The notes below the pieces were generated by a model. The model saw only the letters and a program-made list of their open reading frames with translations, searched no databases and was not told the DNA's origin. DNA of 64,000 bases from Nitratireductor sp. B36 (lineage in GTDB: Bacteria; Pseudomonadota; Alphaproteobacteria; Rhizobiales; Rhizobiaceae), in the NCBI RefSeq assembly GCF_020833685.1, contig NZ_JACKZY010000002.1, positions 992,001-1,056,000 on the forward strand. The letters are read 5' to 3'. The position numbers and the translations under genes are program-made. Positions 13,281 through 27,823 of this stretch are shown piece after piece (the stretch's first letter is position 1; each line of letters opens with the position of its first letter).

Positions 13281-13394
13281 TTCCGCCCTTCTTCTCGCAA
13301 AAATCTGAATTATCAGAGGAACATGCCTTATATGGAGGCTGTGTGAGCCGGCAAGCGGTTCCCTTTGGACCTGCTCCGAACTAATGATGGTGCC

Positions 13395-14585
13395 ATGTTG
13401 ACCAATTCCGTTGACGACGCAAGCGACGCGGGGCGCCCGAGCGGCCAGAGTGAGGAACCTCACCTGGAGACAGGCATCGAAGATGGCGTGCTCTCATGCC
13501 GCCTTAGAGGCGCGTGGAACACGCGCACCGTGGCTCGGGTCGACGCGCGTATGCGTAAGCTGGAAGCGCAGGATGAGCCGCAGCATGTCCGGATGGATCT
13601 TTCCGGGGTGACAAGCCTCGATACGGCAGGGGCGTGGATTATAGAACGTCTTGTCTATGCACATCAAAGGCGCGGTGCCGAGGTCGTGATCAGCGGGGAA
13701 AGCGAGGCGGCCAAGATACTTTTGCCAGCGGTGCGGGATGCGGTCGAACAGGATAGCGAAAGCAAGCCCCCGAAAAAAAACGCGCTGTTTCTCAACATGT
13801 TGGAGCGTATCGGCCACGCCATGTACGAGGCGCGGGACGATATCATCTATGGTGCTCATATTCTGGGGGCTACCATCGGCGGCGCCCAGATGAAACTTGG
13901 CCGCGCGCATGCCATCAATCCTGCCGCCATCGTCAACCAGATTGACCGGATGGGGGTGGGTGCAGTCCCGATTATCGTGCTGATGTCGGCCATCGTCGGC
14001 GCCATCATCGCCCAACAGGGGGCGTTCCAGCTGCGGTATTTCGGGGCTGAAATCTTCGTTGTCGACCTGGTCGGAATTCTCATTCTGCGCGAACTCGGCG
14101 TGCTGATGACCGCGATTATGATCGCTGGCCGTTCCGGCAGCGCGATCACCGCTGAAATCGGCTCGATGAAGATGCGCGAAGAAGTGGATGCGCTGACCGT
14201 GATCGGTCTTAATCCGGTCGGTGTTCTCGTCTTTCCACGTCTCGTGGCACTCATGGTGGCAGTTCCCTGTCTCACCATCGTTGCCAACTTTGCAGCGCTC
14301 GGTGGCGCGATGCTGATCGCCTGGCTTTACTCGGGGATCCCGCCGGAGGCCTTTATTGACCGGTTGAGAGATTCCATCGATCTTTCAACGATCTTTGCCG
14401 GTTTGATCAAGGCGCCCTTCATGGCTCTGATCGTCGGAATCATTGCTTCCATCGAGGGAATGAAAGTGGGGGGAAGTGCCGAGTCTTTGGGAACCCACGT
14501 CACCGCGTCGGTGGTCAAGGCGATTTTCGTGGTGATCGTTGTGGATGGGATGTTTGCCATCTTTTACGCGGCAATCGACTTTTAG
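13395..14585 (+). CDS. mlaE: MlaE-type permease with N-terminal STAS domain
   Basis: The membrane subunit of an Mla-type lipid ABC transporter, 396 residues. The first 100 or so residues form a STAS domain (MDLSGVTSLDTAGAWIIERL), the part supplied by separate MlaB in enterobacteria. The remaining 270 are the MlaE permease, with GVGAVPIIVLMSAIVGAIIA, GREL-like ILRELGVLMTAIMIAGRSGS, and MKMREEVDALTVIGLNP. It therefore combines MlaB and MlaE. It heads an operon with the ATPase (8-base gap), the MCE protein and a lipoprotein. The start is uncertain: ATG at 13395 or TTG at 13365. Such systems move phospholipids between the inner and outer membranes. Confidence 0.9.
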   Translation: MLTNSVDDASDAGRPSGQSEEPHLETGIEDGVLSCRLRGAWNTRTVARVDARMRKLEAQDEPQHVRMDLSGVTSLDTAGAWIIERLVYAHQRRGAEVVISGESEAAKILLPAVRDAVEQDSESKPPKKNALFLNMLERIGHAMYEARDDIIYGAHILGATIGGAQMKLGRAHAINPAAIVNQIDRMGVGAVPIIVLMSAIVGAIIAQQGAFQLRYFGAEIFVVDLVGILILRELGVLMTAIMIAGRSGSAITAEIGSMKMREEVDALTVIGLNPVGVLVFPRLVALMVAVPCLTIVANFAALGGAMLIAWLYSGIPPEAFIDRLRDSIDLSTIFAGLIKAPFMALIVGIIASIEGMKVGGSAESLGTHVTASVVKAIFVVIVVDGMFAIFYAAIDF

Positions 14586-14593
14586 GTGGCGGG

Positions 14594-15406
14594 ATGGTGC
14601 TGACCCAAGAACGACAGGAAGAGCAGGTGGCGCAGTCGCGCGATGTGGTTCTCTCCGTGCGCGATGTAACAGTCGGGTTTGGTGACACGCTGGTGCTCGA
14701 TGGCCTTTCGCTTGATGTGTACCGCGGTGAAATTCTTGGCTTTGTCGGGGCCTCGGGCGCGGGAAAGTCCGTGTTGCTGCGTACCATCCTCGGTCTCGTG
14801 CGAAAGCAGTCGGGATCCATTCACCTGTTGGGGCAGGATCTCGACGCGGCGACTGATGAAGAGCGGCTGAAAGTCGATATGCATCAGGGTGTGCTGTTTC
14901 AGCACGGTGCGTTGTTTTCGGCCCTCACGGTCCTTGAGAACATACAGGTGCCGATGCGTGAATATCTGGATCTGCCGCGCGCGCTGATGGATGAACTGGC
15001 CTATCTGAAACTCGAACTCGTGGGATTGCCGCGCAACGCTGCGCCGAAATATCCCTCCGAGCTCTCCGGTGGCATGATCAAACGCGCAGCGCTTGCACGC
15101 GCGCTGGCGCTTGATCCGGACATCGTATTTCTCGATGAGCCGACTTCCGGCCTTGACCCGATCGGCGCGGCCGAGTTCGATGAGCTGGTCGGGAAACTGC
15201 GCGACACGATGGGTCTGACCGTCTATATGGTCACGCACGATCTCGACAGTCTCTTGACGGCGTGTGACCGCATTGCCGTTCTCGGTGGCAAACGTGTGCT
15301 CGTGGAAGGCACGGTCGAGGACATGCTTGCATGCGACGATCCTTGGGTGAAAGCCTATTTCAGGGGAAAGCGTGCACGGCAAATCGACCGTACCGCGAGA
15401 GGTTAG
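14594..15406 (+). CDS. mlaF: Mla-type lipid ABC transporter ATPase
   Basis: The nucleotide-binding subunit, 270 residues. Walker A is GASGAGKS at residues 52-59, the Q-loop is QHGALF, the signature is LSGGM and Walker B is IVFLDEPTSGLDP, followed by the switch histidine in MVTHDLDSL. The sequence after the signature (IKRAALARALALDPD) is typical of MlaF-type rather than drug-exporter ATPases. It lies between the permease and the MCE protein with gaps of 8 and 9 bases, so the three are certainly one operon. It is cytoplasmic, bound to the permease. Confidence 0.93.
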   Translation: MVLTQERQEEQVAQSRDVVLSVRDVTVGFGDTLVLDGLSLDVYRGEILGFVGASGAGKSVLLRTILGLVRKQSGSIHLLGQDLDAATDEERLKVDMHQGVLFQHGALFSALTVLENIQVPMREYLDLPRALMDELAYLKLELVGLPRNAAPKYPSELSGGMIKRAALARALALDPDIVFLDEPTSGLDPIGAAEFDELVGKLRDTMGLTVYMVTHDLDSLLTACDRIAVLGGKRVLVEGTVEDMLACDDPWVKAYFRGKRARQIDRTARG

Positions 15407-15415
15407 CAGGTTATC

Positions 15416-16789
15416 ATGGAAACCAGAGCCAACTACGTTCTTGTCGGCTTCTTCACCGTGCTGGTCATTCTGGCTGCATTCGGTTTCGTCTATTGGAGCG
15501 CAAATATCGGTGACCGGGGAGAGACGGCAGTCCTGCGGTTTCGGATTCCCGGTTCCGCGTCAGGTCTCTCGCGTGGCAGCGCGGTTCTCTTCAATGGCGT
15601 GAAGGTGGGCGATGTTCGACGGGTTTATCTGGACCTTTCGAACCCCAGCGTGGCGATTGCTGACGCGGAGGTCGACCGCCTGACACCGATCACGCGGTCC
15701 ACCAAGGCGGATGTGGGCTTGGCCGGATTGACCGGCACCGCCAATATCGAGCTGACGGGGGGCGATCCAACGGAGCCTAATCTCTTCGATCTGGCAGAAG
15801 AACAGGACACGGTCGCGGAAATCCAGGCGAGTCCTTCAGCGGTGACCAATCTTCTTCAGACCGCGCAGAGCCTGCTGACGCGCGCCGACAATGTGGTGTC
15901 CCAGCTTGAGGGATTTACCAAGGACGCCCGGCAGCCGCTGACCGACACGGTCAAAAACGTCCAGCGTTTCTCTGAAGCCTTGGAGCGCAATGCGTCGGGC
16001 ATCGATTCCTTTCTCGCGAATGTGAGCTCTCTTTCCGAGACGATCTCCAACGTATCGGGCCAGCTCGACAGCACCCTGAAGGCGGCTGAAGAACTGATCA
16101 CGTCGGTGGATCGCGACAAGATTTCGTCCATGGTGAGCAATTTTGACGAGTTTTCCGGTCGACTCGAAAAGGCGAGCCGCAACATCGACACGGTCATGTC
16201 CAGCGTCGAAGAAACGGTGCGCTCGATCGGTACGTTCTCGACCAACGCTAATCAAACGCTGGCCAAGCTCGACGGTGTTCTGGACAGTGTGGATCCCGCC
16301 ACGGTGAAATCTGCCGTCGGAAATTTCGAAGAAGCAAGCGCTACGGTGAACCGGGCAGCCAAAAGCATCGCCGATGTCAGCGAAACTGTGGACAAGCGCA
16401 AAGAAGATATCGATCAGTTCATCACCAATGCCAGCGAACTGGCCAGCCAGTTGAACAAGTCGTCGGTGCGGCTCGATTCGGTTCTCGCCAAGCTCGACGG
16501 CATGCTCGAATCCGGTGACGGCGAAGGCCTCATGGCTGATGCGCGTGAAACACTCAAATCGTTTCGCAAGATGGCTGAAACACTTACGGTTCGGGTCGAT
16601 GCGATCTCCGGAAACCTCGAGCGCTTTTCGGGCGGCGGATTGCGAGAAGTCGAGTCGCTGGTTCGCGATGCACGGCGCTCCATCAACCGGATTGAAAGCG
16701 CTGTCACGGACTTCGAGCAGAACCCGCAGCGCATCATAACCGGCGGAGAGGGCACGATTCGTCGTTATGACGGCCGGGTGCGACGTTGA
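15416..16789 (+). CDS. mlaD: MCE-domain protein MlaD
   Basis: The membrane-anchored substrate-binding subunit, 457 residues. One N-terminal transmembrane helix (YVLVGFFTVLVILAAFGFVY, residues 7-26) is followed by an MCE domain to about residue 120 (GLSRGSAVLFNGVKVGDVRR, GLTGTANIELTGG). A long helical tail of about 300 residues follows, with heptad-like Ser/Thr/Asp-rich repeats such as VSQLEGFTKDAR and LDSVLAKLDGML. Enterobacterial MlaD is only about 180 residues, so this is the long alphaproteobacterial form, whose tail may help span the periplasm. The ATG follows the ATPase stop by nine bases. Confidence 0.92.
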   Translation: METRANYVLVGFFTVLVILAAFGFVYWSANIGDRGETAVLRFRIPGSASGLSRGSAVLFNGVKVGDVRRVYLDLSNPSVAIADAEVDRLTPITRSTKADVGLAGLTGTANIELTGGDPTEPNLFDLAEEQDTVAEIQASPSAVTNLLQTAQSLLTRADNVVSQLEGFTKDARQPLTDTVKNVQRFSEALERNASGIDSFLANVSSLSETISNVSGQLDSTLKAAEELITSVDRDKISSMVSNFDEFSGRLEKASRNIDTVMSSVEETVRSIGTFSTNANQTLAKLDGVLDSVDPATVKSAVGNFEEASATVNRAAKSIADVSETVDKRKEDIDQFITNASELASQLNKSSVRLDSVLAKLDGMLESGDGEGLMADARETLKSFRKMAETLTVRVDAISGNLERFSGGGLREVESLVRDARRSINRIESAVTDFEQNPQRIITGGEGTIRRYDGRVRR

Positions 16790-16895
16790 CATTCATGCAG
16801 CATCATCCCAAACCAGATGAGATAAGGTCGTTGGTTTTTTAACGATTTCAGGGGCTGGTCCCGCCGGGTTCACCGGCGTTCGGATTGAGGAGCGT

Positions 16896-17501
16896 TTGTT
16901 GAGGACGAGGGCGAGGATTATAGCGCTGCTGGCGCTGGGGGGCGTTCTGTCCGGCTGTGCTGCCTTGCCAGGCGGCGGGCCTGCGCCCGTCGATGCATTT
17001 GACCTCACCACACCCTCCGTATCGCAGGATGGGCGTCGTGTTAGCCGAAAACAAATTCTGGTGACCGAGCCCACAGCGATAAAGATGCTCGACGGGCAGG
17101 ACATCGTCGTGAAAACGTCGAGCGGTGCCATTCAGTATCTTGGCGGCGTGCGGTGGGCAGATCGCCTGCCGCGAATTGTCCAGACGCGTATGGCTGATCT
17201 CTACCAGCGCTCGGGTCGCTTCGGTGGTGTGGGTATGCCAGGCGAAGGACTGGCAATCGATTACCAGATCCTGGCAGACTTGCGCGCCTTCAATGTCCGT
17301 GTGGACGGGCAGGATCGTGCTGAAGTCGAGATCTTCGTTCGCATTCTGAATGATCGAAACGGGGTGGTGCGGGCTTCCCGCATCTTCAGTGCTTCGGTGC
17401 CCGTGGGCGGGAGCGGCGGGCAAGCATTTGCTTCGGCGCTCGACCGTGCCTTCGGCACGGCCATGGCCGGACTGGTGGACTGGACTGTGGCGAACATCTG
17501 A
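16896..17501 (+). CDS. ABC-type transport auxiliary lipoprotein (PqiC/DUF330-like)
   Basis: A 201-residue outer-membrane-type lipoprotein. The signal ends in the lipobox VLSGC with the lipidated cysteine at residue 21. The rest shows the ABC-transport auxiliary pattern (DLTTPSVSQDGRRV, GVRWADRLPRIVQTRMADLY, AIDYQILADLRAFNVRVDG). This family is usually last in MCE/Pqi/Mla-type operons and is thought to be the outer-membrane partner. The start is a TTG, chosen because GAGGAG precedes it by a good distance and it lies directly ahead of the signal peptide. About 100 bases separate it from mlaD. Confidence 0.87.
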   Translation: MLRTRARIIALLALGGVLSGCAALPGGGPAPVDAFDLTTPSVSQDGRRVSRKQILVTEPTAIKMLDGQDIVVKTSSGAIQYLGGVRWADRLPRIVQTRMADLYQRSGRFGGVGMPGEGLAIDYQILADLRAFNVRVDGQDRAEVEIFVRILNDRNGVVRASRIFSASVPVGGSGGQAFASALDRAFGTAMAGLVDWTVANI

Positions 17502-17520: not shown

Positions 17521-18561
<1,041 letters not shown>

Positions 18562-18771: not shown

Positions 18772-21700
18772 TTAGCGCAGGCGGCCACTGGCATGAGCCA
18801 GCATCGTGTAGACCTTGCCGGTGTCGGAGGTCAGATAGGTCTGGGTCATCATATTGTCGCGATCGGAACGGGAGACATCCCGCAACAGTTTCTCGAAATC
18901 ACGGCAGTACAAATCGACAGCGGCATGAAATTCAGGATCAGAACGATATTTGTTCTGAATCTCGTCGAATGTCTGCTGCCCCTTCAACGTATAGAGGCGG
19001 CGCGTGAAGACGTTCCGTTCGCCGCGACGATACCGGTCCCAAAGATCGATCGAGGCTTCATGATCGATTGCCCGAGCAATATCCACGGAGAGCGAGTTCA
19101 GTGATTCCACCACATGCAGGGCTGACCGGTCTTCCTTCTGAACGGATGAGGCCGGGCGTTCACGTTCGTTGCGACCTTCTTCGTTGGAAGCGCTGCGCAG
19201 GAGGTCGCGAATCCAGCCACCGCCAGCCGCTGGCTGGCTTGCCTGCTGGGGTGCGCGTGTGGGCTCTACCGGACGCGACGCCGGTGCCGCGGACTGACGC
19301 GGTCTTTCAATGACCGGCTGTGCCGCTGCTGAGGGCGCCTGCGGAGCAGGTGCTGGCGCCGGCTGGCGCAATGGAGGTGTATCGGTGGGCAGGCGATTCT
19401 CGCTTGCTCGATCACGACCGGGCATCCGGCCGGATTTCGATACGATATCCGAAAGCTCTTTCAGCGCGTTCACCTGTTCTGTAATCGCGTTGCGCATTGC
19501 CGAGGTCGACTGTTTGGCTTCAGCCGGCAGTTCGGCAATTCCGCGTTTCACATCACTGCGCGTCTGCTCGAGCTCGTTGCGGATTTCGGCAGCCGTCCGA
19601 CGAATTTCATCCGTTGCTCCGCTAAAGCGGCTTGTAGCCGCTTCCACGACTTCGGCGATCGACTGTCGAATACCTTCGACTGACTGCTGCGTGCGTCCCT
19701 CGGCGGTGGTGAGGGTTCGCGCCACAAAATCCTCGAACGCGTTCATTGTGCGCTCGATATGCTCGGATTTCTCAGCCAGGCCGGAGGCCAGGGCCTCCAG
19801 CGCCTTCTGACGGTCCTCAAGATTCCCGCTCAAGCCCGATTGCGCGCGCTCCAGCAACTCTGATGCTGTCTCCAGAACCTTGCTGTGATCTTCGAACCGG
19901 CTCGCAATCGCTGAAATTTCGCGAAGGGTCCTGTCGGAGAAGTCAGCCAGACGGCCGGAGTTTGCATTGATGAGGCTCGCTGAGTTGGAGAAGGTCTCGG
20001 CAGCCTTTTCCGCGTTCTCGGCAAAGCTGGTGGCTGTGGTGCTGAGGCGCTCGTCCACCTCGGAGAGATTCTTGGACGCCGTGGAAATCAACGCGCCCAA
20101 ACGCTGGCCGGAAACGCCGAGTTTCTGAAGAAGCTCGTCGATGTGCCCGGTCAGGTTCGACTGCACATTTTCGAAAGCAGATAGAGCTTCGTTCGTTCGG
20201 TTGGTCAGCGCATTGAGCAGAGCAGCGTTCTCTGACTGCAGACGCTGCGTCGTTTCCGTCGTGATTGCCTGAATGCTTTCGCGCAGCTCGCCGCCGCTGG
20301 CGGCGAAACGCTCCACGAGCGGTTTCGCCGTCTCGTCCAGAATACGCGACATCTCCGCTGTACGGCCCGCCAAGATGGAATTGAGTTCGCGGGTGCGCTC
20401 TTCCAGGCTTGAAACGGTTTCGTTCGTACGTTTGCCGATGTGTTCGTCCACCGACGCAAAGGTCTGAGCGATCGTGTCGGCAGTGGAGACGAGACGGGCC
20501 TGCGTGGTGGAGAGTTGCTGGTTGACGTGTTGGGCAACCGACTCTGCGCTTTCCCGCAGGCGCGCATCTGCGTCGTTGATGCCGCCGGAGATGGCGCTGG
20601 CGATCATGCTGGCACTGTTCGACAGGCGTTCCTGAAGTTGCGAAAGCGATTCGCTCATGGCACTGGCGCGTGCGTCGAGCTCGGCCGATGTCTGGTGAGT
20701 CCGGGCGATGACACGCTGGTCAAAGTCCTCGAAAGTCTTGGAAAGATCTTCCGTGCGCGCCGTGAGCTGTTCCGTGGTCTGATCGACCCGGCTCAGGATC
20801 TTGCGATCCGCTGCATCAAAGGTGTCGGTGATTGCCTTGGTGTGTTGCGACAATGTCTCTGCGGTCGTCTCCAGGCGCGCAGCGATGCGGCCATCAACTT
20901 CGGCAAAGGTCTGCGCGAAGACGCCGGCACGCTCGGTGAAGCGCGCCGAAGCGTCGTCAAATGTCCGGTCGATGTCCTCGATGCGTGCGCCGAGGGTCGA
21001 TGCGGTTTGTTCGGCGCGCGCGGCAATGCGCTTGTCTGCGTCCTCGAACACCTTCGCTGCTTCCTCGTTCAGCGTCGAGGTTGCCTCGATGACTTTGTCG
21101 CGCAGGGCGCCCGCGACGACAACGGCGCTGTTCTCCAGTGTGCTGCGGACATTTTCCACGCCGATCGATAGCGCTTTTTCCATAGTCTGGGTGCGCTCTT
21201 CGATGATCCCCGTCTGCTTGGTGAAGATCTCGTTGACGCGCATGGCTTCGTCTTCGATCACGGCATTGAGTGCAGTGCGGTGTTCATCGATCTTGGCAAT
21301 GTTGGCGTCGAGGGCTTCGCCGAAACTGTCACGCGTTTTGGCAAGCTGCTGCACCTGCTCGCCGATTCCGGCTTCGAAGGTTGCGCGCGCCAGATCGAGT
21401 TTCTCCATATCCGCGCTGAATGCGCCGGAGAGCCGCTGGTGCGTTTCCTCGAACGCCTGGATCTGACGCTGTGCGGCCTCGCTCATGCGCGACTGGGTCG
21501 CGTCGATACGTTCAATGCCTTCGTCGAACTGAGCGGCCATCTGCGACCAGTTCTGGTCGAGACGTTTGCCAAACTCACCAGCTGTGTTTTCCAGCATGAT
21601 GCTGGTCGAAGCCACAAGGTCTGACAGCTCGCTGCTAAGAGCGGTTTTGCCTGCCTCGACAGCTGCGGAGACTTCATCCTTGCCCTGAGCGAAGGTGTTG

Positions 21701-23577
21701 GCGATTTCGCGGGTACGTTCAACGAGTGTTTCGTTGATGCTGCGCGCCCGCGCTTCCAGAGCTGAGTTCAGCTTCTGCGTGCCGGCGTCGAGCGCTTCGG
21801 CACGCGTGGTAAACTCGGCGATGAGAGCGCGGCCCCGCTCGGTGACGGCATTTTCGAGCTGGCCAAGGCGGGTGTCGAATTCACCGGTCAGGGATTCAGT
21901 GGCCTCGCCCAAGGAAGACATAAGAGCGGAGCTGCGGGTCTCGAACAGCGAACTGAGCGAGCGCGTCGTCTGATCGGTGCGTTCGGCGAGCGTCGCCATG
22001 CGCTCATCGAACAGGTTGCCGAGTGTCTGCGCCGCTTCCTGGGTTTCCTTTGTGAGCGTGCCCAGACGCGAATCGAGAACCTTGGTCAGGGTCTGTTCTG
22101 CATCTTGCGTGTTCTGGCTGAAGGCAGAGATGCGCGAGTCAAGCACATTGCCCAGCTTGGTGGCTGCTTCTTCAGCGCCATCGGCAAGGGCGGAGACACG
22201 CGAATCGAGCAGGCCACCAATCTTCTCGGTGGCTTCGTCGGTTCTTTGCGCGAGCGTGGCCATCCGCGTGTCAAACAAGGTGGCGAGATTCTGGGTTGCA
22301 TCCTCCGTCCCCTTGGTCAGGGAGGCAATGCGGGTATCGAGCAGGCTTGCCACGGCGTCGCCAGACGTGGTGATGCGCTCCGAAAGGCTTTGGATGCGAT
22401 CGTCGATCCCCTTATGAAGGGTGCCGCCAGTGCCTTCGAGCTGCTTCAGCAATGCTTCACTCGACGCGTTCACCGATGCCGCAAGTTGGCGGGATGCATC
22501 GGCAATCGTTGCGCGTATGCGCTCGCCGGCCGTGTCCAGCTCATCTTTCAGTATCTCGTGTGCGCCGGCTATGGACGCACGAACACGCTCGGCATGGCCT
22601 ACTATGCCCTCGCGCTCAGACCCCAGCCCATCAACCAGATGGCGAATACGCGTTTCGTTCTCCGAATAGGCACGCTCGAGTTCGCTCACCTCGGTGTGAA
22701 CCAGCGTTTCAAGCTCCACCGCGCGGGAGAGGGTGCGATCCATGCCGTCCCCCATCGCCTGAACTTCGCGGCGAACGGCCTGGCCAACGGTCATGATGCG
22801 TTCGTGGGCGAGGTTTTCAGGTTCGGCGAGGCGGAAGGCTGCCTCTGCCATGGATTGCGCGGCAAGCCTCATTTCCTGGGCGCGGCGCACCATAACTGCA
22901 AAGCCCCAGAACAGGATAACCGGAACGACAATGCCAACCAGCAGGGCGATCGCGTGCGGAGCCGCCAAAAGGGCGTCGGTCGAGCGGATCTGCCAGATTT
23001 CGGGACCGTAAAGCATCTGGCCAAGGAGCAGGCCGCCGCCGATCCACAGTGCCGAGAGAATGGCAACCAGCCAATAGGCGGTGTTGGGGGCGCGTCGGTC
23101 GAATTTGCGCATCACCGCACTGAAGTCGCCGGCACGGTCGTCGTTGGCGGGCGCGAATGACGGGGCGGCAGTGTTCTCGGGGGCAGGTTCGACCGGGGTG
23201 AGGTTCTTCCGGTTGGCGAGCGTATCCTCTGATTTCTCGGGTTTGGAGGCGGTGCTGGTGGCCTTTTCCGGCGCAGCTGCGGTGGAAACCGGGGAGCTCG
23301 CCTTTGCGGCCGGGGCGGGTTCAGCCTTTCCCTTGGAGGATGGCGCAGTGTCTTTCTTCTCGCTCACGGCGACTTTCTCGTCTCCGTTCTGATCGCGATT
23401 TTCGCGCGCGAGTTCCTCAGCCGCTGCAGAAATCTGCGCTTCCAGGTCCTCCATGGAGGCGGCGAGGTCCAGGTCGCCATTCTCCAAGCCGTCTGCAAGC
23501 TCCAGGTCGAGGGCATCCTCGAGTTCCTTCGCAAAATCGCGCTTGGGTTGATTCTTCTTTGCTACTGTACGCGCCAT
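18772..23577 (-). CDS. Giant membrane-anchored coiled-coil protein, GPR-like
   Basis: A 1601-residue protein. Order: charged N-terminus; Ala/Pro/Lys-rich linker (about 60-150); two transmembrane helices (about 168-190 and 206-230); over 1100 residues of almost pure helix; Pro/Gln/Ala-rich linker; and a compact C-terminal domain of about 100 residues with LWDRYRRGERNVFTRRLYTL. It contains ten tandem 22-residue repeats (390-609) and a set of 29-residue repeats (843-1067). This layout matches the growth pole ring protein of Agrobacterium (about 2100 residues, apolipoprotein/kinesin-like in automatic annotations), needed for polar growth and rod shape. Orthology is inferred from architecture and lineage. 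It is monocistronic, ends in a good terminator, and is divergent from an Hpt gene. Confidence 0.82.
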   Translation of the reverse strand: MARTVAKKNQPKRDFAKELEDALDLELADGLENGDLDLAASMEDLEAQISAAAEELARENRDQNGDEKVAVSEKKDTAPSSKGKAEPAPAAKASSPVSTAAAPEKATSTASKPEKSEDTLANRKNLTPVEPAPENTAAPSFAPANDDRAGDFSAVMRKFDRRAPNTAYWLVAILSALWIGGGLLLGQMLYGPEIWQIRSTDALLAAPHAIALLVGIVVPVILFWGFAVMVRRAQEMRLAAQSMAEAAFRLAEPENLAHERIMTVGQAVRREVQAMGDGMDRTLSRAVELETLVHTEVSELERAYSENETRIRHLVDGLGSEREGIVGHAERVRASIAGAHEILKDELDTAGERIRATIADASRQLAASVNASSEALLKQLEGTGGTLHKGIDDRIQSLSERITTSGDAVASLLDTRIASLTKGTEDATQNLATLFDTRMATLAQRTDEATEKIGGLLDSRVSALADGAEEAATKLGNVLDSRISAFSQNTQDAEQTLTKVLDSRLGTLTKETQEAAQTLGNLFDERMATLAERTDQTTRSLSSLFETRSSALMSSLGEATESLTGEFDTRLGQLENAVTERGRALIAEFTTRAEALDAGTQKLNSALEARARSINETLVERTREIANTFAQGKDEVSAAVEAGKTALSSELSDLVASTSIMLENTAGEFGKRLDQNWSQMAAQFDEGIERIDATQSRMSEAAQRQIQAFEETHQRLSGAFSADMEKLDLARATFEAGIGEQVQQLAKTRDSFGEALDANIAKIDEHRTALNAVIEDEAMRVNEIFTKQTGIIEERTQTMEKALSIGVENVRSTLENSAVVVAGALRDKVIEATSTLNEEAAKVFEDADKRIAARAEQTASTLGARIEDIDRTFDDASARFTERAGVFAQTFAEVDGRIAARLETTAETLSQHTKAITDTFDAADRKILSRVDQTTEQLTARTEDLSKTFEDFDQRVIARTHQTSAELDARASAMSESLSQLQERLSNSASMIASAISGGINDADARLRESAESVAQHVNQQLSTTQARLVSTADTIAQTFASVDEHIGKRTNETVSSLEERTRELNSILAGRTAEMSRILDETAKPLVERFAASGGELRESIQAITTETTQRLQSENAALLNALTNRTNEALSAFENVQSNLTGHIDELLQKLGVSGQRLGALISTASKNLSEVDERLSTTATSFAENAEKAAETFSNSASLINANSGRLADFSDRTLREISAIASRFEDHSKVLETASELLERAQSGLSGNLEDRQKALEALASGLAEKSEHIERTMNAFEDFVARTLTTAEGRTQQSVEGIRQSIAEVVEAATSRFSGATDEIRRTAAEIRNELEQTRSDVKRGIAELPAEAKQSTSAMRNAITEQVNALKELSDIVSKSGRMPGRDRASENRLPTDTPPLRQPAPAPAPQAPSAAAQPVIERPRQSAAPASRPVEPTRAPQQASQPAAGGGWIRDLLRSASNEEGRNERERPASSVQKEDRSALHVVESLNSLSVDIARAIDHEASIDLWDRYRRGERNVFTRRLYTLKGQQTFDEIQNKYRSDPEFHAAVDLYCRDFEKLLRDVSRSDRDNMMTQTYLTSDTGKVYTMLAHASGRLR
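20377..21051 (-). repeat. 29-residue coding repeats
   Basis: Within the GPR-like protein, units of 29 residues start at 843 (VFEDADKRIAAR), 890 (TFAEVDGRIAAR), 919 (TFDAADRKILSR), 948 (TFEDFDQRVIAR) and 1039 (TFASVDEHIGKR). The pattern is a hydrophobic/Phe start, an acidic D, a basic R/K, then TTAETL- or QTTEQL-like and a charged end. Three units are directly joined (890-976); the others are separated by divergent stretches. Confidence 0.75.
21751..22410 (-). repeat. Ten tandem 22-residue (66-bp) coding repeats
   Basis: Residues 390-609 of the GPR-like protein divide without gaps into ten 22-mers. They begin GIDDR, LLDTR, LFDTR, LLDSR, VLDSR, VLDSR, LFDER, LFETR, EFDTR and EFTTR. Each has the pattern hydrophobic-hydrophobic-D-S/T-R, a second hydrophobic patch near position 9, and a T-x-x-A-T/A-x-x-L block near the end. 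The 22-residue period is that of apolipoprotein A-type amphipathic helices, which explains the usual automatic name. Confidence 0.85.
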
Positions 23578-24200: not shown

Positions 24201-24350
24201 TTTTCCTCTCCACTGGAAGACACGGATTGCCTTTCAGGTCCAAAAACCATAAGTGAAGCGCTGAAGTTGAGCGTGAGCGCCCCAGGGGCGGCTGCGCCCA
24301 TATTATTGCCGCACAATCCGCGACCATTTCACCAAAAGCCGAGTGACCGC

Positions 24351-24671
24351 ATGCCGAAGATCACCTATATCGTCCCCGATGGAACGCGCTTCGATGTCGA
24401 TGCCGCCAATGGGTCCACGGTCATGGAAAACGCAATTCGCAATGCTGTACCGGGCATCGAGGCGGAATGTGGCGGGGCCTGCGCCTGTGCCACTTGCCAC
24501 GTATATGTGGACGAAGAGTGGGCTGGCACAGTCGGCCAACCTGAGGCAATGGAAGAGGATATGCTGGACTTCGCCTACGAGGTTCAGCCGACTTCGCGTC
24601 TGTCTTGTCAGATCATTGTGCGCGATGAACTGGACGGTTTGATCGTTCGCATTCCCGAGCGACAAGCCTGA
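24351..24671 (+). CDS. 2Fe-2S ferredoxin, adrenodoxin type
   Basis: A 106-residue electron carrier. The cluster ligands are C40, C46, C49 and C86, in [16 protein letters not shown] and RLSCQIIV, giving the C-x5-C-x2-C-x36-C spacing of adrenodoxin/ISC-type ferredoxins. In alphaproteobacteria these serve Fe-S assembly or P450-like reductases; no such partner gene is nearby. The frame is open 28 codons upstream, but the family begins at [11 protein letters not shown]. The gene is monocistronic as far as can be seen and is convergent with the DUF922 gene. Confidence 0.94.
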
Positions 24672-27277: not shown

Positions 27278-27823
27278 CTACTGCCGAGCGATGGCTTCGA
27301 TGCCGCCGGAATCCGTGCGCTTCAGCTTCATTCCGATGACAGGAACCATGTCGTCGTTCACCTGTACAGAAATGGTGATGTGCATGGTGTTCTTGTCACT
27401 GATGCGCGCGCGCATGGCACCGCTCAGTGATGAACGGTGAAGTGCGAAAACCACGTCATTCCCAATGACTTTGCCCCCGGTAACATCGAGGCCTTTTCCA
27501 GCCGCGCCGTCAAGGAATGTGCCACGGTAGCCGCCCTTTTCGCGGACCACGCTGGCTTTCATGGGCTGCGTGAAAACCCCAACCCGGCAACTTCCGTCCA
27601 GTGCCATGCCAATGTTCTTTTCGGGCGTGCCGCCGTCGAAGTTGCAGACGAATTTCGTGCCCTTGTATTTCCCGGCGACAATCTCACCCGGCCCCGACCA
27701 GCTTCCTTCGACTGACTGGAAAAAACGCCTCTCGCTTTCCGAGGCTTCCGCCGAGCCGGCCAGTCCGGACATCGGGGCAGCGGCAGCGGCCAGAAGGGCA
27801 AGCTTGAGCGCGAATTTCAGCAT
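27278..27823 (-). CDS. Conserved secreted protein of unknown function
   Basis: A 181-residue protein with a clear signal peptide (LKLALLAAAAAPMSGLAGSAEA). The mature part begins ERRFFQSVEGSWSGPGEIV, with a later GGYRGTFLDGAAGKGLDV and a C-terminal VNDDMVPVIGMKLKRTDSG. The GSWSGPGEI opening recalls small lipocalin-like or THAP4-like beta-barrel families found in rhizobial genomes, but I cannot name a domain with confidence. Two cysteines (FVCNFD, GSCRVG) could form a disulphide in the periplasm. It is convergent with the fol operon. Confidence 0.7.
   Translation of the reverse strand: MLKFALKLALLAAAAAPMSGLAGSAEASESERRFFQSVEGSWSGPGEIVAGKYKGTKFVCNFDGGTPEKNIGMALDGSCRVGVFTQPMKASVVREKGGYRGTFLDGAAGKGLDVTGGKVIGNDVVFALHRSSLSGAMRARISDKNTMHITISVQVNDDMVPVIGMKLKRTDSGGIEAIARQ

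Follow-up and report, generated by a model that had tools for sequence, protein, structure and literature searches.

A probable GPR/RgsE orthologue in Nitratireductor, its hendecad helix and a likely relationship to TipN

The 64,000-nucleotide stretch of Nitratireductor sp. B36 analysed here (the window; contig NZ_JACKZY010000002.1, positions 992,001 to 1,056,000) encodes a giant, mostly helical protein of 1601 residues. The question it raises is whether this protein is the counterpart of the growth pole ring protein GPR of Agrobacterium and, if so, why it has some 500 residues fewer; the first-pass annotation had taken it for a GPR orthologue, perhaps shortened by loss of repeats. We consider it very likely that Nitratireductor, a relative of the root-nodule bacteria, has its orthologue of GPR/RgsE in the window protein. 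The protein would then be a cytoplasmic scaffold of the growing pole, anchored in the inner membrane, and would belong to a wider alphaproteobacterial family that includes TipN.

Build and orthology of the window protein

The open reading frame (ORF) is not a chance one, because its frame stays open, the nearest named relative, from Nitratireductor sp. pb3, is 97% identical, and the translation holds seven consecutive 22-residue repeats; the plus-strand reading of the same interval contains 16 stops. A whole-protein search of the source genome (G000) matched a single place, the window gene on contig 2. The build described by the first-pass annotation was borne out (coordinates in Table 1). Behind an N-terminal part with many charged and small residues, hydropathy finds two adjacent transmembrane (TM) segments and no third. 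The helix of more than 1100 residues that follows contains only three prolines, at 253, 1086 and 1351, and the linker behind it has 14 within residues 1401-1450. The last 117 residues, predicted together with 33 relatives (A5), form a compact, all-helical domain of seven helices (pLDDT 85.6, pTM 0.81); an earlier model of this domain (A3) was poor (pLDDT 59).

Pfam and NCBIfam scans of the window protein drew no match to this C-terminal domain, which the searches below find class-wide, and a PDB sequence search with the whole protein gave no match at 1e-3. Foldseek with the domain model returned nothing at 1e-3 (best 0.19) and the best VIA-align Z against structure libraries was 5.9, both comparisons being uninformative for helical bundles. 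NCBIfam matches of the window protein to ZorA, SpiroCoCo and a mycoplasma family fell below their cut-offs and one to LA_3659 just above (36.8 against 36); we take all of them as coiled-coil resemblance and not as identity. A scan for promoters and terminators found none exceeding shuffles.

GPR of Agrobacterium tumefaciens (Atu1348, 2115 aa) is reported to have two N-terminal TM domains, a helix of about 1,700 residues, PF01442 matches, a Pro-rich region and a C-terminus needed for function (PMC8262873), and the build of the window protein is likened to it by this description. For the sequence, RgsE of Sinorhizobium meliloti served as stand-in, reported to be 42% identical to GPR (PMC7327166). 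The PLSDB record CP090106.1 (S. meliloti Ak57, L058) carries an ORF of 2089 aa annotated 'kinesin', and 2089 aa is also the published length of RgsE (SMc00190; PMC7327166). This protein is like the window protein in its TM pair, three-proline hendecad helix, Pro-rich linker and C-terminal domain, and the two genes have the same order of genes upstream: Hpt, ferredoxin, hypothetical, DUF922 protease, folP, folB, folK, hypothetical, YcjF and YcjX in S. meliloti, and, by Pfam, Hpt, ferredoxin, DUF922, folP (PF00809), FolB, HPPK, DUF697 and DUF463 (YcjX) in the window, where a further ORF (27278-27823) lies within the same neighbourhood. Downstream of the window gene, Pfam identifies an auxiliary lipoprotein, MlaD, an ABC ATPase and MlaE. 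Both flanks are as in the window in Shinella (L059) and in most other named relatives. The 47 named loci, the window among them and some truncated at contig or flank ends, include 43 with the lipoprotein, 42 with MlaD, 41 with MlaE, 42 with MlaF (counting an L058 gene 7.2 kb off that is probably another ABC transporter), 44 with ferredoxin, 41 with folP and 30 with YcjX.

The C-terminal domain is 67-81% identical to that of the window protein in the 12 other rows from its order in our C-terminal model A1, and a pairwise BLAST against RgsE leaves the last 117 residues mostly identical. The family match is present in 20 of 20 genomes searched, the source genome included, and the latter holds one match to the C-terminal domain. 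Because the window protein has a single place in its genome, shares its upstream order with RgsE and ends in a highly conserved C-terminal domain, we regard it as orthologous to GPR/RgsE; these comparisons support an orthologue of RgsE and a homologue of Agrobacterium GPR. The first-pass annotation had staked its proposal on C-terminal homology and on the absence of a better GPR orthologue in the genome; the homology is there, and no better orthologue turned up.

Some observations pull in the other direction. Agrobacterium GPR is compared through RgsE only, not directly, and outside its last part the pairwise BLAST against RgsE (29% over 1357 aa) covers largely coiled coil. The Mla-type genes found downstream of the window gene are missing beside RgsE in the S. 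meliloti record, where an IS110 transposase and cytochrome bc1 genes stand instead, and the Mla block is also missing at L033, L035 and L043. In addition, RgsE is reported to be dispensable in S. meliloti (PMC7327166), which means that the role is not equally strong everywhere. Rings or foci at the growing pole, with a requirement for rod shape, are published for A. tumefaciens and S. meliloti (PMC8262873, PMC7327166), and it is from such published homologues that we infer the localisation, ring formation and partners of the Nitratireductor protein.

The hendecad helix and its changes in length

The long helix is a hendecad array, built of 11- and 22-residue units, whose length appears to change by 11, 22, 29 or 62 residues within several genera. 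The seven consecutive repeats have a mean pairwise identity of 0.34 (2000 shuffles: mean 0.089, maximum 0.141), and between residues 406 and 560 hydrophobic residues occupy positions 0, 3 (4) and 7 of an 11-residue unit, which is the hendecad pattern. Residue autocorrelation peaks at 22 and 11 in the window protein, with the maximum at 22 both there and in RgsE, and the hydrophobic periodicity is 3.646 and 3.666, respectively, with little power at 3.5. A search for a tandem array at the DNA level in the window gene found none.

A 22-residue amphipathic periodicity is also typical of apolipoproteins A1/A4/E (PF01442), and the window protein matches this Pfam family in 8 stretches with 124.5 bits, above the curated cut-off of 90. 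The protein might then be a lipid carrier that sequesters lipid at the pole, with its 22-mer helices resting on a membrane or on lipid, a reading close to the proposal of the Agrobacterium work and in line with the Mla-type genes that adjoin in 42 of the 47 named loci (by MlaD) and in other families. We nevertheless hold it to be highly improbable. The 22-mers of apolipoproteins are punctuated by proline, whereas the window helix has three prolines in about 1150 residues and none in its seven 22-mers; of 44 proteins of the order, 35 likewise have exactly three in the helix as delimited for this count. The hydrophobic seam at positions 0, 3 (4) and 7, kept in phase by insertions and deletions (indels), suits a coiled coil instead, and the C. 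vibrioides member of the family has no PF01442 match. The window protein is furthermore anchored in the membrane and its helix is several times longer than true apolipoproteins, which have 250-400 residues (PMC8262873).

Returning to the coiled-coil array, its growth and shrinkage can be followed among relatives. In 169 close pairs, considering gaps with well-matched flanks, we found 145 distinct indels of at least 5 aa, of which 94 are multiples of 11 (13 expected); the commonest other lengths are 29 and 58. The phase coherence of indels at 3.64, taken from the same pairs with no flank filter, is 0.53 in the helix versus 0.13 in the N-terminal part and 0.22 in the linker. Hoeflea-type proteins contain neighbouring copies of 11, 22, 29 and 44 residues that are nearly the same (91-100%) and have the look of recent tandem duplications.

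An alignment-free check is given by the spans between three prolines of fixed context in the helix (P1, P2 and P3), measured in the 44 proteins of the order save L018, L033, L035 and L043; in L025, L030 and L059, which have more prolines, P1-P3 were chosen by context. The P2-P3 span is 265 in 8/8 Nitratireductor, 264 or 265 in 11/11 proteins of the Mesorhizobium/Aquamicrobium type and 287 in 2/2 Oricola. It takes the values 294, 323, 352 and 381 (29-residue steps) in 15 Hoeflea-like proteins and 305, 367 and 429 (62-residue steps) in four Rhizobium-like ones, S. meliloti with 429 being two steps above 305. For P1-P2, 12 of 13 distinct Hoeflea values share one class modulo 11, which none of 20000 random draws equalled, and Nitratireductor has 789, 811, 833 and 880.

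The regularity has its limits, and these count against a general rule of unit steps. When gaps in the helix are counted regardless of their flanks, multiples of 11 make up only 91 of 314 indels (28.5 expected), and since the events of this set are not independent, its nominal probability should not be taken at face value. The nine distinct P1-P2 values of Mesorhizobium/Aquamicrobium are 1, 10, 4, 9, 1, 1, 2, 6 and 1 modulo 11, with no 11-step order. Total helix lengths modulo 11 show no order across distant genera; order is seen only within groups, and not in the Mesorhizobium group.

Compared with RgsE (fixed-proline spans 1193 and 429), the window protein (833 and 265) is 360 residues shorter in P1-P2 and 164 shorter in P2-P3, and 488 residues shorter in all. 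Because 264-265 is common to Nitratireductor and all measured proteins of the Mesorhizobium type, the P2-P3 difference is best read as a gain in the Rhizobium line. A soft, one-pass estimate on a midpoint-rooted tree gives a helix of ~1420 residues at the node uniting the Rhizobiaceae-type genera, 1150 in Nitratireductor, 1600 in Rhizobium/Sinorhizobium/Shinella and 1740 in one Mesorhizobium group. The idea that the window protein was shortened by repeat loss thus survives in one half: lengths do shift by repeat-sized units, but part of the gap to RgsE probably arose by gain on the other side. In view of the proline-anchored spans we reject simple loss of repeats as the cause of the whole ~500-residue gap. 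We also rejected the notion of an unusually short protein, as lengths differ both among and within the genera read; the eight whole-read Nitratireductor proteins, the window protein included, have 1557-1641 aa (a count leaving out L008 with a broken frame, L038, which is cut, and L018). For its order, the window protein is of medium length and otherwise an unremarkable orthologue. L018 itself, a metagenome-assembled genome labelled Nitratireductor, encodes a protein of 1476 aa that is placed elsewhere in the tree.

In the mechanism we propose, the two N-terminal TM helices would pin the protein in the inner membrane at the new pole, while the hendecad helix would self-associate into long coiled-coil rods reaching into the cytoplasm, with three fixed proline positions (as mere arithmetic, 1150 helix residues at 0.15 nm per residue measure about 170 nm when fully extended). 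The Pro-rich linker may act as a tether for the conserved C-terminal head, which would bind partners or close the assembly, and the ring formed in this way, touching Tol-Pal, may organise the synthesis of peptidoglycan and envelope at the pole. Units duplicated or deleted with the seam in phase would make the helix longer or shorter, and such changes would explain how 1601 residues can do the job of about 2100.

A class-wide family that may include TipN

The model A1 (14 rows) was searched against 241 evenly drawn Alphaproteobacteria and matched 92 of them, with one copy in 91 and two in G213, whose GPR-like genes (L152 and L182) encode 1600 and 1842 aa. The 89 closed ORFs with the domain range from 324 to 2743 aa (quartiles 805, 1052 and 1379); 13 have at least 1601 aa and 5 at least 2000, so that the window protein is long rather than short in the class sample. 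The shortest, of 324 aa in G231, is a weak match (2.5e-5), followed by ORFs of 508 and 525 aa. Of the 145 family ORFs of at least 450 aa, 140 have two TM segments close together near the N-terminus. Three of the remaining five (L037, L131 and L179) are truncated at the 5' end, one (L119) has a second peak slightly under the threshold and one (L156) has a single peak.

GPR/RgsE and TipN look like members of this one family, with homologous TM-pair and C-terminal domains. An alignment of six full-length ORFs from the genus g66 (A4) found one TipN-like protein in each of 16 genomes, chosen from 119 of the Caulobacter family and mostly those nearest Caulobacter by GcrA. One of them, G353, has a GcrA identical over 159 residues (100%) to the solved GcrA of C. 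vibrioides, and its TipN-like protein, counted from the first ATG, is 882 aa long, as TipN is stated to be (PMC13170164). A wider C-terminal model (A2; 49 rows, none from Caulobacter's family) matches the extreme C-terminus of all 16 proteins (15.4-51.3 bits; 40.7 bits for G353, at residues 806-880), and an N-terminal model built on 140 rows, covering the TM pair and 75 further residues, also matches 16/16 (30.1-57.1 bits). Among 336 decoys, shuffled or reversed, the top score was 5.7 bits with the C-terminal and 6.2 bits with the N-terminal model. Profile-profile comparison of named relatives with Caulobacteraceae pairs like ends at 92.9% (C-terminal) and 92.8% (N-terminal), and crossed ends at less than 1%.

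Several points speak against including TipN or set it apart. A1 found no match in G071, G252 and G172, the class genomes with the GcrA nearest to Caulobacter, and A2 matched just 11 of 21 genomes around G252: 9/13 in genus g66 (E 3e-9 to 5e-6), 2/2 in family f148 (E about 1e-21) and 0/6 in families f135, f146 and f147. The name 'TipN' fits the G353 protein by the species assignment through GcrA, by length and by build, and not by a named record. The g66 ORFs have 833-932 aa (7 of 8, one being cut at a contig end) with one or two N-terminal TM segments above threshold, and no relatives of Hpt, Mla or ferredoxin genes were found in the 6-12 kb around them. TipN is about half as long as the window protein, and Caulobacter keeps MreB.

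Convergence would explain the likeness by two coiled-coil membrane proteins that resemble each other in build and not in ancestry. It would be favoured by the small size and helical nature of both models, by E-values of the TipN searches that were computed for 16 sequences, and by the g66 C-terminal matches, which are weak at genome scale and missing in four of 13 genomes. However, two independent domains match in the right order in every one of the 16 proteins while decoys and crossed profiles fail, and the family f148 (L236/L237), bridging the two sides by its strong C-terminal match, has the MlaE-F-D-lipoprotein genes next to its family member, an arrangement shared with most of the window's order. 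Convergence therefore seems very unlikely to us, and common descent of GPR/RgsE and TipN is the reading we follow.

The resemblance is already noted in the literature: GPR/RgsE and TipN have been termed 'analogous' (PMC13170164), and GPR is described as 'with similarity to' TipN (PMC8546619, citing a 2019 paper). A 2015 review treats TipN as Caulobacter-specific (PMC4460556). Full-text literature searches found no published homology test of GPR/RgsE against TipN, and no paper pairing TipN with RgsE. Overproduction of TipN gives ectopic poles. That of RgsE is reported to cause branching, and two-hybrid and pulldown experiments show an interaction of RgsE with TolQ (PMC7327166); TipN is a new-pole landmark interacting with Tol-Pal (PMC7403779).

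The family is not a marker of MreB loss, because 85 of the 92 carriers of the C-terminal domain have MreB and seven lack it. At E 1e-40, MreB is found in 225 of the 241 class genomes and in none of the four drawn from the window's order. One of the four is the source genome, in which none was found at this threshold; the two best matches there are DnaK and FtsA by their ORFs, and a third lies below the cut-off. Outside the order, G054, G176 and G203 carry the C-terminal domain with no MreB at 1e-40, and may be independent polar growers or reflect genome gaps. The frequency of the family in MreB-bearing genomes, where growth is presumably not organised by it, and the landmark role of TipN itself (PMC7403779) could mean that the window protein, although orthologous by descent, is a pole landmark only, placing flagellum and ParA and stabilising the pole as TipN does with no part in directing growth. 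We find this unlikely, as no MreB was found in the source genome and GPR, RgsE and B. abortus RgsE mark the growth pole in this very order (PMC8262873, PMC7327166, PMC9938171). The 85 MreB-bearing carriers argue for an older pole landmark that only later took over the direction of growth. In all probability the family arose as a landmark in cells with MreB, and in Rhizobiales the landmark became a growth organiser after MreB was lost.

Two intensively studied pole organisers, described separately in different model bacteria, can accordingly be regarded as a single family whose two end domains are homologous. Which part marks the pole and which recruits the growth machinery thereby becomes open to test through the exchange of domains between S. 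meliloti and Caulobacter. The variation in length by units, for its part, provides rods that differ in length while sharing their ends, and raises the question whether length matters.

Gene neighbourhood

The positions of the features in the window are collected in Table 1. All named loci of the order for which 1.5 kb or more is available upstream have a divergent Hpt gene there (44 of 44), as do 10 of 11 additional fetched genomes of the order. Outside the order, Hpt matches occur at 19 of 89 loci, two of them in a same-strand hybrid histidine kinase. Over all loci, 74 of 148 have an Hpt match upstream of the GPR-like gene, two hybrid kinases included. The Hpt protein might conceivably correspond to ShpA of Caulobacter. 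The phospho-accepting His is kept in 67 of 72 stand-alone Hpt proteins and replaced in L060, L092, L095, L097 and L170. Within the family f76 (L143:857-3475, L148:849-3506) the same-strand upstream gene is a hybrid histidine kinase with receiver and Hpt domains (by Pfam, L143 only).

The auxiliary lipoprotein is found downstream in the 43 named loci counted above, S. meliloti not among them, and in 17 of 101 others. The Mla-type lipid-transport operon (13365-17501 in the window, convergent with the window gene) also stands beside family members outside the order, at L094, L096, L098-L101, L104, L171, L159, L236 and L237. This adjacency makes a functional connection of the pole scaffold with lipid traffic a candidate idea. 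As a tentative and rather doubtful extension, a single pole landmark ancestral to GPR/RgsE and TipN may have stood beside an Mla-type operon and a divergent Hpt gene. Its hendecad rod would serve as an adjustable ruler, changed in steps of 11, 22, 29 and 62 residues that preserve the seam, and a phosphorelay would control how large or how deep the pole ring becomes; Rhizobiales would have promoted the landmark to growth organiser at the loss of MreB.

Table 1. Features of the GPR/RgsE-like gene, its protein and the neighbouring genes in the window
Feature	Residues	Position in window	Strand	Basis or remark
GPR/RgsE orthologue ORF	1601 aa from ATG	18772..23577	minus	stop counted in coordinates
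TM helix 1	167-185	23023..23079	minus	hydropathy; N-terminal family model
TM helix 2	210-228	22894..22950	minus	hydropathy; N-terminal family model
Near-uninterrupted hendecad helix	230-1385	19423..22890	minus	hydrophobic period, autocorrelation, proline count, PF01442
Seven consecutive 22-residue repeats	406-559	21901..22362	minus	repeat identity versus shuffles
Pro-rich linker	about 1390-1450	19228..19410	minus	proline count
Conserved C-terminal helical domain	1485-1601	18775..19125	minus	common to RgsE and TipN-like proteins
MlaE permease with STAS domain		13365..14585	plus	PF02405
ABC ATPase, MlaF-type by position between MlaE and MlaD		14594..15406	plus	PF00005
MlaD-type protein		15416..16789	plus	PF02470
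ABC-type transport auxiliary lipoprotein		16896..17501	plus	PF03886; convergent with window gene
Hpt phosphotransfer protein, divergent	119 aa	23841..24200	plus	PF01627; phospho-accepting His kept
2Fe-2S ferredoxin		24267..24671	plus	PF00111; conserved-neighbourhood member

Between the lipoprotein and the window gene lies a zinc-type alcohol dehydrogenase gene (17524-18561, minus strand; PF00107 and PF08240). It looks like a recent insertion, because a relative is found in that place in only 5 of the 47 named loci, all of them Nitratireductor (the window, L002, L003, L004 and L038). On an 880-kb plasmid of Sphingomonas parapaucimobilis (L060:6081-8405) we found a family member of 774 aa. It has both TM helices and the C-terminal domain, and the Hpt-like gene divergent from it lacks the His. 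The S. meliloti record CP090106.1 is labelled pSymB; with 3.7 Mb and with rgsE, fol and cytochrome bc1 genes, it looks like a mislabelled chromosome. Its IS110 element stands just downstream of RgsE.

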